From: Akkermansiaceae bacterium
GTDB taxonomy: Bacteria; Verrucomicrobiota; Verrucomicrobiia; Verrucomicrobiales; Akkermansiaceae
NCBI GenBank assembly: GCA_029288115.1
Contig: JARFPV010000413.1
Coordinates: forward strand, 1-14,096
DNA: 14,096 nt
Direction: 5' to 3'
Within the stretch, counting starts at the first letter, position 1, and each line of letters starts with the position of its first letter. Shown here piece by piece: positions 1 to 13,970 of this stretch. Made by a program: the position numbers and the translations under genes. The notes under the pieces were generated by a model, which saw nothing but the letters and a program-made list of their open reading frames with translations, searched no databases and was not told where the DNA came from.

Positions 1-55
<55 letters not shown>

Positions 56-60
56 ATTTA

Positions 61-128
61 CAAGCAGAAGCCGCAATCCGAGATTTGGATTCAAGTCTCG
101 TGGGCTCGGAGATGTGTATAAGAGACAG
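61..128 (+). other. Illumina P7 / Nextera transposase adapter (contamination)
   Basis: Positions 61-84 match the P7 flow-cell oligo with a few mismatches, 85-94 look like a 10-base i7 index, and 95-128 match the Nextera read-2 adapter. The adapter ends in the 19-base Tn5 mosaic end AGATGTGTATAAGAGACAG at 110-128. Translated in the frame of the next gene it gives the artefact peptide SLVGSEMCIRDR. Genomic sequence begins at about 129, so any gene start placed inside this segment is false. Confidence 0.97.
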
Positions 129-4690: not shown

Positions 4691-5191
4691 TCATGACTCA
4701 GATGAGTCGTCCTGAATTGCGTCCAGAGCGTCCCAAGGATTGGGTGCTTCGTCGCGGGGAGGGGTCTTTACATCATCCCTGGTGGGTTTGTCCACTGCTA
4801 AATACCGGGAATCCACTTCGCAGTCCATAGGCTCGTCAGCCTCGTCACAACGTGGATAATCAGGGAAACGGACCACAATTTCCTCTCTTAGACAGTCTAC
4901 AAGGTCCACTTGGGAGCCCGTGAGCTCGATACTCAGATCAAAGGAATCCACAATAATCGTCTGCTCAAACTTCTGTAATGTACGCACACAGGTGAAGCGC
5001 ATTTTGACCTCCAGGCTACCGCGCACCAGTAGCTCGGAATCAAATTTCTGTAGATGGAGGTCGTATTCAAGAGGTCCAGCCGCGTTCAAATCTCCATCAG
5101 GCAGGTCAAAGATCGATCCGTCCAACTCTCCTGAGAAGGTTTTTCCCTCCTCGGGCAAAGTAGCGGTGTCAATAGTAAGGTGCTTTTTCAT
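4691..5191 (-). CDS. YceD/DUF177-family protein
   Basis: This 166-residue cytosolic protein belongs to the DUF177 (YceD) family, almost always encoded just before rpmF and linked to large-subunit rRNA maturation in some organisms. Visible features are the central strand block RGSLEVKMRFTCVRTLQKFE (57-76), the LTGSQVDLVDCLREEIVVRFP region (90-110) leading to YPRCD, and the C-terminal NPWDALDAI, which matches the family's usual ending. The tail is acidic and Ser-rich. The family's usual second C-terminal cysteine pair is only partly recognisable (Cys115, Cys124). It begins 13 bases after the selD stop and so looks co-transcribed with selD. Family assignment rests on context as well as sequence. 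Confidence 0.85.
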   Translation of the reverse strand: MKKHLTIDTATLPEEGKTFSGELDGSIFDLPDGDLNAAGPLEYDLHLQKFDSELLVRGSLEVKMRFTCVRTLQKFEQTIIVDSFDLSIELTGSQVDLVDCLREEIVVRFPDYPRCDEADEPMDCEVDSRYLAVDKPTRDDVKTPPRDEAPNPWDALDAIQDDSSES

Positions 5192-5204: not shown

Positions 5205-6263
5205 TTAGGAAGCGCTCAGATGGATTGCCTTGTCTTGCTGCGGCACTGTTCTTCCGATTTCCACCGCACATGGAGCACCGGTTTCCTCAAGTGTTTCCAT
5301 GACAGCGTTGAGATTTTCCTCAGGCACACTTAGTAACAGTCCACCGGACGTCTGGGCGTCGGCTGCAATAAGCTGTAGCGCATCGCTGACGTTATCGGCG
5401 ATATCCAGACGTGGCATCGCGTGCTCAAGGTTCTTGCGGGTGCCTCCGGGGACACAGTCATCGATGACGTGTTGCATGACCTCGGGCGACATCGATGGTA
5501 GCAGTGAGGCGTCAATTTCGGCGGACACACCACTGCCGTCGCATAACTCGATCAGATGACCTGCCAGACCGAAGCCCGTGATGTCTGTGCAGCAGCGGAC
5601 CAGCCCGCGTTCCGCTAGGGTAGCGCCAGGCTTGTTAAGTGTTGCCATCAATTCACTGGCGTGATTGGCGAGTTCTTCCGAGCAAATTCCACGTTTGATT
5701 GCGGTGGAGACAATACCGCTGCCCAGCGGCTTAGTGAGGAGAAGGATTTCGCCCGGGCGTGCATGCGCATTGGCCAGATGGCGTTCAGGGTGCACCATGC
5801 CAGTCACTGCCAGGCCGTAGATAGGTTCTGGGTTTTTGATCGTATGTCCGCCTAGAAGACTGCACTCTGCTTCAACACACATTTCCGCACCACCACGGAA
5901 AATCTCACGGATAGTATCGTTGTCGATCACATCGGACGGCATGCCGGCAATGGCGAGAGCAGTTAGTGGCCGGCCTCCCATAGCATAAACATCTGAGAGC
6001 GAGTTCGCTGCTGCAATACGGCCATAGAGCAATGGGTCGTCGACAATCGGTGTGAAAAAATCCGTCGTCTGCACCAGTGCACGATCGTCGTCGATTTTGA
6101 ACACACCGGCGTCGTCCGCAGTTGCGGAACCTACGAGCAAGCGCTCATCCTGATGTTGAGGCAACCCATGCAGAACCTGCGTGAGCGACTCGGGGTCGAG
6201 TTTAGACGCTCATCCAGCACAGGAGGCTAGTGATGTGAGGCGTATGGTATCTTTGTTGGTCAT
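5205..6263 (-). CDS. selD: Selenide, water dikinase, itself a selenoprotein (in-frame TGA = Sec18)
   Basis: SelD makes selenophosphate from selenide and ATP, the selenium donor for selenocysteine (and for selenouridine in tRNA). The recognisable frame from 6164 lacks the catalytic N-terminus. Reading upstream through one TGA (6212-6210) restores it: the ATG at 6263 gives 352 residues with RLTSLASCAGUASKLDPESL at 8-27. Aligned by eye to E. coli SelD (RLTQYSHGAGCGCK), the TGA sits at catalytic Cys17 and Lys21 at Lys20; E. coli Cys19 is Ser20 here. Further ATP and metal sites are TADDAG (48-53), TTDFFTPIVDDP (66-77), ANSLSDVYAMGG (86-97), LLGGHTI and the C-terminal AQTSGGLLL. A TAA lies just upstream in frame, so 6263 is the first possible ATG. 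A SECIS-like hairpin starts at the TGA. It heads the yceD-rpmF unit. Sec or Cys at this site is known in the family. Confidence 0.93.
6182..6212 (-). promoter_or_regulatory. Candidate bacterial SECIS hairpin with the Sec UGA
   Basis: Read on the minus strand, the UGA starts a hairpin. An outer 6-bp stem pairs UGAGCG with CGCUCA, a 5-base one-sided bulge (UCUAA) follows, then an inner 5-bp stem ACUCG/CGAGU with an ACCC loop. Both stems are perfect Watson-Crick. Bacterial SECIS elements sit just after the UGA inside the coding region and are bound by SelB. The tip here is about 13-14 bases past the UGA, slightly closer than usual. A loop G is obtained only if the closing G-C pair opens. The position is right; function is inferred. 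Confidence 0.6.
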
Positions 6264-10194: not shown

Positions 10195-11982
10195 CTATCT
10201 CTGGAGGCTGGGGTTCCGTAGTTTTTTTCTAACGATTTCAGAAGCGAAATCTCCAATGATGACGATGCAGGCACTGAGGAGAATAAAAAAGAGCCATTCA
10301 TCATAGTTGTCTCTCGCTCGTGCTTCATCAATGAGAAATCCTAGAGAGCTGATGCCAAGAAGGCCAAGCACCGTGGCATCGCGGATGCACGTTTCCCAAC
10401 GGTAGAAAAAATACAAGACCATGCGGTTAAAGTAAGCGGGAAGAACCGAGAACAAGTATCCTTGTAGACGGTTTCCACCTTGGGCTAGCTGGACCTTGGT
10501 GTGATTTAAATCCGAGTGGTCTGCTAGCTCCCCCCCGAGTCTGCCGACAATGCCGTAATTGTGGATAGCAAGTCCCAAGATGAGTGGCCAAGCAGTAGGC
10601 CCAAGCATTTGTAGGAGCAAGAAGGCTAGTAGAAACTCCGGCATGCTGCGGCAGAGAATAAAGAGTGCGCGCAAGAAGAGTGAGGTAAGCTTATGGAGCA
10701 AATTCAAGACACGATTGTTGCCAGCATAAATGCCGTAAGGATTTTCCTCATTGAGAGACTTGGAGCTCCACGGCAAGGTGATCAGTCCCATGATAAAGGC
10801 GAGTATCATCGCGGCAGTGCCGATGTAGAGCGTCTGTAGCGAGGCCTCCACTCCTTGTTCCAGAATAAGCTGTTTTGCCCATGGTATGGCATCGCTCCAG
10901 TCGCCGGATTTTTGCACCGGGTAGGGTGTGATTTCCTCGGAGAGAAAGCGTTCCAGATTTGACATGCGCTGCTCCCAGCTGAGTTTTGAGAACAGAGAAT
11001 CGCCTGTGGTCCAGGAAATGGTAGTGAGACCGATGGTAAAGATAGCGGTTATTGTGAGGAGTCGTCGCTTCGGCTGGACTCGGCGTAATGAGCTCGGTGA
11101 AAGGTTTTCCGGGAGGTGTTTCGCGGACGGGTAATTCGTCATGCTCTTGCGGATGTAGTGGCTAGAGCGCTCTACGATCAGGATCAAAGCGAGTAAGGCG
11201 TATAGCAGTGTCCACAGTTCATTATAGTAGTTGTCTTCAAAGGCTGTTTCAATGTGGAGCCCGATCGTGGATATGCCAACGAAACCTAAAATCGCTGCCG
11301 AGCGAATGGCGCATTCAAAACGGTAGAGGGTATAGCTGACGATGTCTTTTAGTGAGATCAGGAATGTGCCGTATAGCCAGGATGCAAAGGTGCCTCCCCC
11401 CAAGGATTGAAGGTAAGCTTTGGCGTAGCTTGGTTGTTCATCAAGCAGTTCAGAAAATACTTTAGCCAAGCTGCAGCTGTATGGGATGGACAGTGCGACG
11501 ATCACGGCCATGGGCGAGGTGCCGAGGGCTGTTATGAAGATGAGTGCCCACAGTATTTCATGAACGGATCTGCCAGCTGTGGTAACCGTCCGTGTGATAC
11601 GGTGGGTTATCGCGAGGGTGAGGCGTGTGACGACTGACTTCGAGCGAGGTGGCCACCAGGACTTGGACGACAGGAAGCCAAGAATGAGTCCGACCGGTAG
11701 AGATAAAGAGATAGCGCATACAGCGTATTGGAGGGTGTTCCATAATGCTTCGCCGATTTTATGCCAGAATGGCGGAGCCGACTCCGGCATATCCGGGTCT
11801 TGGTAATCCAGTGCGGGTTCGAGCGCCGCAGCAAAGAATTTTTTTATCACCCCCATCCCATACTCTTGAGGGAAGAAGTCTGCCCACTTGATCTGCGTGG
11901 AGTAGATGCAGAATACGAGTAAAGGGATCAGGAGTAACAGAAAGATCCTGCGTGCGCCCTTGTATGGTTTCAAGGAAATCAT
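10195..11982 (-). CDS. PhnE-family ABC permease, two permease halves fused in one chain
   Basis: This is an inner-membrane permease of the phosphonate/phosphite (PhnE) type, 595 residues long, about twice the usual length. Two homologous halves are visible. The first has EALWNTLQYAVCAISLSLPVG (78-98), RSVHEILWALIFITALGTSP (138-157) and RFECAIRSAAILGFVGISTI (221-240). The second has QGVEASLQTLYIGTAAMILAF (376-396), RSMPEFLLAFLLLQMLGPTA (445-464) and RWETCIRDATVLGLLGISSL (528-547). The EAA coupling loop precedes the last pair in each half. One chain can thus supply both membrane domains of the importer. Its ATG overlaps the ATPase stop (ATGA), indicating translational coupling. Substrate cannot be read from the permease; a selenium oxyanion is possible, as argued for the binding protein. 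Confidence 0.9.
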   Translation of the reverse strand: MISLKPYKGARRIFLLLLIPLLVFCIYSTQIKWADFFPQEYGMGVIKKFFAAALEPALDYQDPDMPESAPPFWHKIGEALWNTLQYAVCAISLSLPVGLILGFLSSKSWWPPRSKSVVTRLTLAITHRITRTVTTAGRSVHEILWALIFITALGTSPMAVIVALSIPYSCSLAKVFSELLDEQPSYAKAYLQSLGGGTFASWLYGTFLISLKDIVSYTLYRFECAIRSAAILGFVGISTIGLHIETAFEDNYYNELWTLLYALLALILIVERSSHYIRKSMTNYPSAKHLPENLSPSSLRRVQPKRRLLTITAIFTIGLTTISWTTGDSLFSKLSWEQRMSNLERFLSEEITPYPVQKSGDWSDAIPWAKQLILEQGVEASLQTLYIGTAAMILAFIMGLITLPWSSKSLNEENPYGIYAGNNRVLNLLHKLTSLFLRALFILCRSMPEFLLAFLLLQMLGPTAWPLILGLAIHNYGIVGRLGGELADHSDLNHTKVQLAQGGNRLQGYLFSVLPAYFNRMVLYFFYRWETCIRDATVLGLLGISSLGFLIDEARARDNYDEWLFFILLSACIVIIGDFASEIVRKKLRNPSLQR

Positions 11983-12749
11983 GGCTCTACCAATTCAGAT
12001 TCAGAAAGGTGGTATAGCTCTTCGAGTTGCTCTGTTGATGGCTCAGGGGAATCAAATAAGATATGCCCATTTTTCAAGCCAATCATGCGTGGGAAAAACT
12101 CACGTGCCAGATTCACATTTTGAATCGACATCACCAGTGTGAGTTGGTTCTCTGTCGCAATTTCTGATAGTAAAGTAATGAGGCTGCGGGCTCGTGCTGG
12201 ATCTACTGCAGAAATCGGTTCATCTGCTAATAGAGTGTGTGCCTGCTGAAACAGCGCGCGGGCAACGGCTACGCGTTGTTGTTGTCCGCCGGACAGGGTA
12301 GCCGTGTGTTGGTACATCTTTTCAGGGATGCCTACCCTTTGTAGCAGTGAGAAGATGTGTTGGAGGTTTTTTTGTGGTGGGATCAGGAATTTGGATAGCA
12401 TCCCCAGCGCAGAGTGCTTGCCCACTCTACCAAGTAGGATATTTTGAAATACCTTGAGTTGTGGGATAAGCCCTAAATCCTGTGGAATGTAGGCTATCTC
12501 ACTACGGAGCCTGCGTAGATCCTTGTTGCTAAGGCTATCTAGATGCGATTCTGCCCTATCCGATTCTATAAGGCTGTAGCTGCCAGAGTTTTGCAGCACT
12601 TGCCCGTTGAGCAGCTTGAGCAGAGTCGTTTTGCCGCTACCTGAAGGACCAATGAGAGCAACGTGCTCACCCTGCCTGATCTCTAAGGAAATATTACTCA
12701 GAGCAACGGTAGCACCAAAACTCTTGGTGATGTCTGTGAGTTGAAACAC
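11979..12749 (-). CDS. PhnC-like ABC transporter ATPase
   Basis: This 256-residue cytoplasmic ATPase should power the adjacent importer. Walker A is GPSGSGKTT (34-42), the Q-loop glutamine is Gln90 in YIPQDLGLI, the signature is LSGGQQQR (152-159) and Walker B is TLLADEP with Asp176 and Glu177. The overall pattern (SAVDPARAR, NVNLAREFFPRMIGLKNG) is closest to PhnC. The H-loop histidine, normally in a SLHQVDLA-type motif, is replaced by Gln210 (SIQNVNLA; codon CAA), which is unusual. The start is a GTG at 12749; the conserved MFQLTDITKSFG start supports it. It follows the binding protein by 47 bases that contain a hairpin, and it overlaps the permease start by 4 bases. Confidence 0.93.
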   Translation of the reverse strand: MFQLTDITKSFGATVALSNISLEIRQGEHVALIGPSGSGKTTLLKLLNGQVLQNSGSYSLIESDRAESHLDSLSNKDLRRLRSEIAYIPQDLGLIPQLKVFQNILLGRVGKHSALGMLSKFLIPPQKNLQHIFSLLQRVGIPEKMYQHTATLSGGQQQRVAVARALFQQAHTLLADEPISAVDPARARSLITLLSEIATENQLTLVMSIQNVNLAREFFPRMIGLKNGHILFDSPEPSTEQLEELYHLSESELVEP

Positions 12750-12754
12750 AGGAT

Positions 12755-12789
12755 TTAAAATGCCCCTCCCACTCTCAAGCGGGAGGGGC
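12755..12789 (-). terminator. Hairpin between binding-protein and ATPase genes (partial terminator)
   Basis: A 9-bp perfect, all-G/C stem (12762-12770 with 12781-12789, GCCCCTCCC and its complement) has a 10-base loop. On the minus strand it is followed by ATTTTAAA, a weak T tract. In ABC importer operons such a hairpin after the binding-protein gene commonly lowers expression of the downstream ATPase and permease and protects the upstream message. That role is inferred here. Confidence 0.7.
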
Positions 12790-12796
12790 GATAAAA

Positions 12797-13720
12797 CTAT
12801 TCTTTAAAGAAGCCTAGCTCTTTAGCAATCGTAACGATGTTTGCGAAATCTTCGTTCTTTGCTTCGATCAGGCCCTCTTCACGCTTGAGAACTTTAAGAA
12901 CCTCCTCGTCCTTACAGTCGATCAAAGCCTTTTGAAGTTTGTCGATGAAACCAGCACCAAATGTTTCATCAAGTGATGGATGTGCGGTAAAGTTGTAGTC
13001 AGCATACCCGGGGGTTTCCCAGATGATTTTAGCTTTGTTGGGGTCGATTTCCCCGGATTTGGCCATGCTGTCGTAGGTTTTGTAGCTTAATACACCCGCT
13101 TGCACGGAGCCTTCATTGACAGCATTGGCAGTGCCTGCATGACTTGCCTTGCCAGTAAATTGGACAGGCTTGGAGAAGAACTCTTCGGGAGTCTTGCCTG
13201 TTTCTTTCTGGATAAACCAAGTTGGCATTAAGCGGCCAGAGGTAGATTTTTTAGAGCCGAACGTAAATGTGAGATCGGCAATGCCCTTGGGGAATTCATC
13301 AGACTTTTCCAGTCCAGTGGATTCATGCGCGATGAAGTAAGACTTATACTTAGGGTCGACAACTCCTTGGACGATAGCGCGAGATCCCTCGACGCGAGCA
13401 CGGGCTTGCACGCCTGTTAGTCCGCCGAACCATACCAGCTGGACTTCGTTGTTAGCGAACCGATTGACTGAAGCACTGTAGTCTTGTGAGTTAACATACT
13501 CCACTTTGACGCCGAGCTCTTTGGCAAGGTAGTCACTGAGCGCCTTGTATTTGATGCTTTGATCAGATACCTTCTTATCTGTAATCGCAGTGATGCGTAG
13601 GACTTTTTCGTCACCGTTCGCATTGTTTGTTTCTTCATTCTTCCCGCAACTGACCAGGGCAATTGCACCAGCATAGATGGATGCCAGAACGACACCTCTT
13701 AGTATACGTTCTCGTTTCAT
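12797..13720 (-). CDS. PhnD-family ABC substrate-binding lipoprotein, possibly selenium oxyanion
   Basis: This is a periplasmic binding protein of the phosphate/phosphite/phosphonate (PhnD/PtxB) family, 307 residues from the ATG at 13720. A signal peptide with lipobox LVSC puts the lipidated Cys at 25. Earlier in-frame starts (to 13813) would precede this signal and are rejected. Core motifs are ITAITDKKVSDQSIKYKALS (43-62), VQLVWFGGLTGVQARARV (93-110), the ligand-site GSKKSTSGRLMP (155-166) and WETPGYADYNFTAHP (234-248). PhnD proteins bind the oxyanion through the STSG helix end. WFGGLTGVQAR and YADYNFTAHP resemble, from memory, a PhnD clade called putative selenate-binding because it lies beside selD. 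No phosphonate-breakdown gene is in the window. Family is firm; substrate is a hypothesis. Confidence 0.9.
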   Translation of the reverse strand: MKRERILRGVVLASIYAGAIALVSCGKNEETNNANGDEKVLRITAITDKKVSDQSIKYKALSDYLAKELGVKVEYVNSQDYSASVNRFANNEVQLVWFGGLTGVQARARVEGSRAIVQGVVDPKYKSYFIAHESTGLEKSDEFPKGIADLTFTFGSKKSTSGRLMPTWFIQKETGKTPEEFFSKPVQFTGKASHAGTANAVNEGSVQAGVLSYKTYDSMAKSGEIDPNKAKIIWETPGYADYNFTAHPSLDETFGAGFIDKLQKALIDCKDEEVLKVLKREEGLIEAKNEDFANIVTIAKELGFFKE

Positions 13721-13735
13721 ATATTTGTAGTGGCC

Positions 13736-13770
13736 ATTATAACCGCCCCTAAAGCGCATAGGCATAGGGG
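13736..13770 (-). promoter_or_regulatory. Possible promoter/operator for the ABC importer
   Basis: On the minus strand an exact TATAAT (13741-13736) lies 15 bases before the binding-protein ATG, which would leave a very short 5' leader. No good TTGACA is present at the right distance. Where the -35 should be there is a 6-bp inverted repeat, CCCCTA (13746-13751) with TAGGGG (13765-13770), separated by 13 bases. A protein bound there could replace or block the -35. Speculative. Confidence 0.35.
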
Positions 13771-13779
13771 GCATGTCTA

Positions 13780-13811
13780 GGAAAAACGTGTGACTCTTGA
13801 TACGTTTTTCC
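13780..13811. repeat. Perfect 10-bp inverted repeat upstream of the importer operon
   Basis: GGAAAAACGT (13780-13789) and ACGTTTTTCC (13802-13811) are exact complements with a 12-base spacer, 60-91 bases upstream of the binding-protein start. It is too A/T-rich and lacks the trailing T run of a normal terminator in either direction. It could be a regulator-binding dyad or an RNA hairpin in the operon leader. Confidence 0.55.
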
Positions 13812-13970
13812 ATCTTGTGACATGGGAGCCGAAAACCTGCAATTTATTGCACTCAAATGAATGATTTTATTCCCCTGATCATCACATTTTTCCAAGCTAT
13901 GTGAATAATTTGATGGTCCTAATGGTTCATTTTAAGGGCATTGTGAGAGCGAGTGAAAAAACTTTGGAAA

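Follow-up and report, generated by a model that had tools for sequence, protein, structure and literature searches.

A predicted selenocysteine-type selD gene with an in-frame UGA and a covarying SECIS hairpin in an Akkermansiaceae bacterium and its Verrucomicrobiales relatives

Introduction

The roles of SelA, SelB, SelD and MnmH are established pathway knowledge and are carried over by inference to the organism studied here. SelD proteins that contain selenocysteine (Sec) are a known kind: in the available excerpts of the literature, Sec-containing SelD/SPS2 with a UxxK motif is listed as experimentally verified (Table 1 of PMC13188914), and both Sec-to-Cys conversions in SelD and a possible part of SelD in trait maintenance have been described before (PMC1794560, in part). 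A survey of more than 5200 genomes also exists (PMC5029168, in part). Within partial coverage by titles and abstracts, literature on selenophosphate or selenocysteine in Verrucomicrobia and Verrucomicrobiales yielded no paper recognisable as concerning the present case and, because that coverage is partial, we make no claim to a first report.

Here we analyze a 14,096-nucleotide stretch of an Akkermansiaceae genome bin (the window) whose selD gene carries an in-frame TGA. The encoded protein shares its family and catalytic register with E. coli SelD, which we take PDB entry 3u0o to be, and differs from it in having a predicted Sec where the E. coli enzyme has Cys17. It resembles Sec-containing SelD/SPS2 proteins (TIGR00476) in scoring above the family cut-off, in the N-terminal-loop Sec site followed by Lys at +3, and in a bacterial-type SECIS directly past the UGA. 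The difference lies in the CxxU loop (CAGU): among UGA-SelDs, 74 of the order's 78 but 0 of 11 in other phyla have a Cys three residues N-terminal to Sec, whereas in ocean data CxxU accounts for about 5.6% of the single-domain Sec-SelDs, according to excerpts of that study (PMC2398784). The same excerpts describe Ndh-SelD fusions with CxxC, which share with the window protein a SelD domain and a Cys at -3 from the catalytic position but are fused and Cys-type. With its CxxU loop, the window SelD belongs to an already known class of Sec-SelD.

Results

The complete selD frame contains a single TGA at the catalytic position

Read from the ATG at 6263, the selD frame begins MTNKDTIRLTSLASCAGUASKLDPESL and contains one TGA only, at codon 18, with two codons (II) separating the start from the preceding in-frame stop (Table 1). 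An earlier note on this DNA had proposed this upstream translation and had observed that the listed ORF, starting at 6164, lacks the N-terminal catalytic loop; both statements hold, the mechanical ORF list giving a 319-aa TTG-initiated frame in place of the 352 residues. In a family profile search the full-length product scored 373.3 bits against TIGR00476 (cut-off 125) and 370.2 bits against PRK00943 (cut-off 299), placing it within the curated SelD family, and it contains the Pfam domains AIRS and AIRS_C. Alignment with phmmer to 3u0o, labeled selenide, water dikinase, spans residues 4-343 (E 1.8e-78, 267 bits) and sets U18 on Cys17 and Lys21 on Lys20, so that the loop shows the expected Sec or Cys followed by Lys at +3. 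The register to E. coli SelD claimed earlier is therefore right for the Cys17/TGA and Lys positions but not for the distance from RLT to U, which is seven residues and not eight. The best named match is UBA8040, a Verrucomicrobiales MAG (85% identity), and the next matches, at 76-80%, are MAGs labeled Akkermansiaceae, Verrucomicrobiaceae or Verrucomicrobiales. By family assignment, the window gene encodes a predicted SelD that would convert selenide to selenophosphate in an ATP-dependent reaction.

Table 1. Features of the window, with positions on the 14,096-nucleotide stretch
Feature	Position	Strand	Details
selD (predicted selenide water dikinase)	5205..6263	(-)	ATG at 6263; 352 residues; Sec predicted at 18; stop TAA
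UGA codon, very probably read as selenocysteine (residue 18)	6210..6212	(-)	TGA 89, TGC/TGT 13, other 0 of 102 loci; on Cys17 of 3u0o
CAGU, CxxU redox-type motif of the catalytic loop	6210..6221	(-)	Cys 3 residues before Sec
SECIS hairpin	6166..6184	(-)	Inside TQVLHG codons; 8 consensus pairs; loop GUU; loop 33 nt past UGA
False short ORF	5205..6164	(-)	TTG start; 319 aa; mechanical ORF list; without catalytic loop
yceD (PF02620)	4691..5191	(-)	13 nt downstream of selD
Phosphonate-type ABC transporter	10195-13813	(-)	Binding protein passes TIGR04553 'putative selenate ABC transporter', 270 vs 250 bits
Assembly artefact	1-128		Poly-C, then P7-type adapter; exact 19-base Nextera end at 110-128

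Codon 18 is TGA or a Cys codon in every locus compared

We compared the codon homologous to residue 18 across 109 loci, which take in part of the UGA-SelD rows of the order survey, and found 96 TGA, 10 TGC, 3 TGT and no other codon. Dropping seven identical-sequence records (L046 and L048-L053, duplicates of counted loci) leaves 102 distinct loci with 89 TGA, 10 TGC, 3 TGT and no other; L065 and L066 are left out of the count, codon 18 lying outside their coverage, and L047, a distinct genome, enters the counts of 102, 91 and 78 and is absent from the alignments, the motif count made beside the substitution analysis, and the tree. Order loci, the window included, comprise 78 TGA and 13 Cys codons (n = 91), and all 11 loci from other phyla have TGA. 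Within the survey of 386 order genomes, SelD carries TGA in 12 of 12 same-genus relatives (11 full genes and one fragment). With nothing but TGA or TGC/TGT in the 102 distinct loci, the TGA goes far beyond chance and does not stem from a sequencing error.

On either side of the TGA, most substitutions separating the window from 10 genus relatives hit the third base of the codon, a pattern which argues that both parts are translated together. Against relative G362, changes at codon positions 1/2/3 number 1/1/9 over the 16 codons preceding the TGA and 8/2/28 over the 60 that follow; the weakest third-position bias is seen with G221 (9/7/10 before the TGA). The in-frame UGA thus has the marks of a selenoprotein gene, being aligned with the Cys of homologues and having conserved flanks. 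UGA is also the stop codon of plsX, yceD, orf292 and a phnC-like gene, 4 of the 13 window genes, which argues against its reassignment in this genome.

A covarying hairpin follows the UGA

A hairpin starts 25 nt after the UGA, at columns 29-47 counted from its U, with GUU or GUC as the loop in almost every aligned row. Across 85 distinct sequences (out of 88 rows), 95.1% of 680 cells are paired versus 82.9% after shuffling, both partners have changed in 6 of 8 pairs, and covariation reaches 0.456, compared with 0.213 for shuffled alignments (0/500) and at most 0.131 when the structure is slid; a Gln codon (CAG/CAA), for example, shifts jointly with the opposite Leu codon. The hairpin of the window has 7 of the 8 pairs, with one C-A mismatch beneath the top 4 pairs and 3 pairs beyond the mismatch, and the best structure of a 50-nt fold from the UGA shows only the top 4 pairs. 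At -9.3 kcal/mol, the window's 26-nt hairpin region was more stable than every one of 300 synonymous resamplings (z -3.2), and the same test gave a mean z of -2.9 over 81 of the 85 rows (L112, L113, L114 and L115 left out), with 65 below -2. The intact top 4 pairs, loop sequence, spacing and 26-nt folding energy of the window hairpin agree with the bacterial SECIS constraints in the available part of PMC13188914 (an upper stem of 4-16 bp, a loop of 3-9 nt with G among its first two bases, a distance of 16-37 nt from the UGA, and MFE <= -7.5).

An Rfam scan of the window at the gathering threshold gave no match. We built a covariance model (R1) from 55 hairpins, excluding L062, L112, L114, L115 and rows below 53% identity, and it ranked SelD first in all 7 genomes searched (31.6-33.9 bits; runner-up in the window's bin, G000, 14.2), the genomes' own SelD genes being partly in the model by construction. 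Used to look for other genes with a SelD-type SECIS in these seven genomes, R1 gave 20 more matches, none resembling a selenoprotein gene, and those with a UGA 5-45 nt upstream open a read-through frame of 90 codons at most; this negative is weak because scoring reached only 150 of 1015-2443 first-look candidates in each genome and R1 failed to recover the SelW genes in 5 of the 7. Three divergent UGA-SelDs of the order (L112, L114 and L115) have GELL or GKLL in place of QVL and are without a hairpin at the usual site, so their SECIS, if present, must differ.

Sec and selenouridine machinery in the bin and its relatives

The window's bin (3.17 Mb in 710 contigs, 81% complete, 4.5% contamination) contains two genes of the Sec-decoding trait, selB (318 bits, cut-off 242) and selA (476 bits, cut-off 268; truncated by a contig end and covering 427 of 455 profile positions), with a second scan agreeing for each, and the selenouridine trait gene mnmH/ybbB (348 bits, cut-off 220). 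Because the bin is fragmented and partly contaminated, assignment of these three genes to the organism is only as good as the binning. The earlier note had expected selA, selB and selC in the genome; the two protein genes were found, and tRNA-Sec was not found in the incomplete bin. Five matches to the Rfam tRNA-Sec model, with 150 of 301 first-look candidates scored, all correspond to Gln, Leu and Gly tRNAs; BLAST with one tRNA-Sec of the genus returned matches of 14-22 nt only; and contig C267 opens with a short match that does not extend into a tRNA. A search of the bin by synteny with G362 did not find the gene either, and the gene adjoining tRNA-Sec in G362 and G331 (plsC, judged from sequence) has a different neighbor in G000. 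The findings that the note had named as contradicting it, a complete genome with no selA, selB or selC or reads with TGC/TGT at this codon, are not what we see, selA and selB being present and the bin incomplete.

Among the relatives of the genus, 9 of 12 have tRNA-Sec, and an Rfam match above cut-off occurs in 26 of 32 other genomes searched. For the 25 UGA-SelD genomes searched the figure is 22, and ARAGORN calls tRNA-SeC(UCA) in all of them but G262, thus in 21, G262 having a 60-bit match and no such call; G270, G286 and G325, genus bins 84-92% complete, gave no match over cut-off. Three searched genomes have E. coli-type Cys-SelD only (G373, G025 and G288), and tRNA-Sec was not found in them: ARAGORN identifies the over-cut-off matches of G373 and G025 as tRNA-Ser and tRNA-Leu. 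G010 and G026, which have no SelD-strength match, gave tRNA-Ser only, below cut-off, and the best tRNA-Sec matches in all five of these genomes are Ser or Leu tRNAs. In three genomes a tRNA-Sec gene lies immediately upstream of selD on the same strand (G172:C25, G006:C1 and G009:C97).

Other selenoproteins of the genus

SelD has been described as the single selenoprotein in a setting with mnmH and no UGA-containing formate dehydrogenase (PMC1794560, in part). The formate dehydrogenase-family match of G000 (TIGR01591, 824 bits, over cut-off) has no in-frame stop, no listed TIGR01591 match with an in-frame stop occurs in G000 and its 12 genus relatives, and UGA-containing matches over cut-off are confined to G167 and G239 among 33 genomes. 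Together with mnmH this suggested SelD as the only selenoprotein of the genus, an idea we rejected on finding SelW-like genes with a UGA in 10 of 12 relatives; a search for the SelW-like gene in G000 gave no match. Since SelD is not alone as a selenoprotein of the genus, its product is expected to serve Sec as well as tRNA selenouridine. Two of 17 translated UGA-SelW genes, L231 (G344) and L232 (G163), have two in-frame UGAs, with UGMU (UxxU) replacing CxxU. For SELENOW, the available part of PMC7539508 gives UxxU in amphioxus and Ostreococcus, and a limited literature search found no bacterial UxxU SelW.

Cys-containing SelD proteins of the order

We constructed a FastTree phylogeny of 98 SelD proteins, omitting L046-L053 and three short sequences. 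Two TGC genes, L097 (G044) and L098 (G020), are nested among Sec genes with successive node supports of 0.88, 0.96 and 0.80, a placement that indicates Sec-to-Cys conversion as read from the tree. The SECIS hairpin of this pair is decayed, with 5 and 4, respectively, of the 8 pairs left, and is missing from the best fold; both genomes keep tRNA-Sec and a UGA SelW and have no mnmH match. E. coli-type Cys-SelDs of the order, with the loop GxGCGCK, form a separate clade of 7 genes with support 1.0. Outside the window, four CxxC SelD-like loci of the order (L106-L109, frames of 749-793 residues) may belong to the Ndh-SelD type; the 793-residue frame of L108 (G101) has one in-frame TGA away from the catalytic codon, which is TGT.

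Gene neighborhood and window features

yceD adjoins selD downstream in 11 of 11 genus loci with a full selD examined, with 9-36 nt between the matches, and plsX and fabH lie beyond it. From the short gap and conserved gene order, selD and yceD are probably on one transcript. About 4 kb from selD lies the phosphonate-type ABC transporter; all five genus loci that extend 1.5-2.1 kb past accA (L048-L052) gave no sign of such a transporter next to that gene, and a literature search on TIGR04553 found no paper. The artefact at the window start consists of adapters that are presumably Illumina P7-type and Nextera; the ORF at 85-612 begins inside it, and its 19-mer recurs in three other loci of the bin (L013, L014 and L177).

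Discussion

We conclude that selD is almost certainly a selenoprotein gene in which a UGA recoded with a SECIS hairpin specifies the catalytic Sec18. The earlier note's proposal of Sec at the catalytic Cys position is supported by the codon conservation, the covarying hairpin and the presence of selA and selB in the genome. Its judgment that this is a correction to gene calling and no new class was also right, Sec-SelD being a known kind.

If the UGA were instead a true stop or a sequencing error, the gene would be broken or its protein would start at the TTG at 6164 without the loop. The listed ORF does begin there, and untrimmed adapter at contig ends marks the assembly quality as imperfect, but recurrence of the TGA in every same-genus relative surveyed and in most order loci, with Cys in the other 13, the coding pattern on both sides of it and the SECIS covariation make this very improbable. 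Reassignment of UGA to a standard amino acid (codes 4 or 25), with no Sec involved, would also account for a conserved gene with an in-frame UGA; with UGA terminating other window genes, formate dehydrogenase-family and mnmH matches of G000 free of in-frame stops, and Cys as the invariable alternative at codon 18, we give it practically no credence.

Sec decoding could also be in the course of loss, with selA and selB left behind, tRNA-Sec gone, and the UGA-containing SelD non-functional or made by low-level read-through with another amino acid. The failure to find tRNA-Sec and SelW in G000 points in this direction, as does the altered flank of the gene that neighbors tRNA-Sec in G362 and G331. 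The bin is incomplete, however, and the neighbors of tRNA-Sec vary even among relatives that have it; SelD, SelB, mnmH and the hairpin are retained, and the third-position pattern reflects selection on selD. We therefore consider loss highly unlikely and favor a functional Sec18.

With Sec18 in place, SelA would make Sec-tRNA(Sec) using selenophosphate, and SelB would bind the hairpin just past the UGA and bring the Sec-tRNA to codon 18. Sec18 in the N-terminal loop would then act as the catalytic residue handling selenide, with ATP used to form selenophosphate, which would supply SelA for Sec synthesis and MnmH for tRNA 2-selenouridine. Since selenophosphate feeds Sec synthesis, SelD would, by pathway reasoning, depend on its own product. 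A further, improbable extension is that selD is selenium-gated with positive feedback and that termination at codon 18 under selenium shortage could lower yceD, plsX and fabH expression by polarity, an idea prompted by yceD lying within a few dozen bases of selD in each of the 11 genus loci examined and by plsX and fabH behind it; if true, polarity would tie ribosome and lipid synthesis to selenium supply.

The general understanding of selenium use is unchanged by the Sec-SelD of the window. For this gene, the automatic call is corrected, the short ORF being one that would lose the SelD catalytic loop. For the family, UGA-SelD with a clearly covarying SECIS is documented across Verrucomicrobiales, and the G044/G020 pair makes it possible to compare Sec with Cys SelD in nature.
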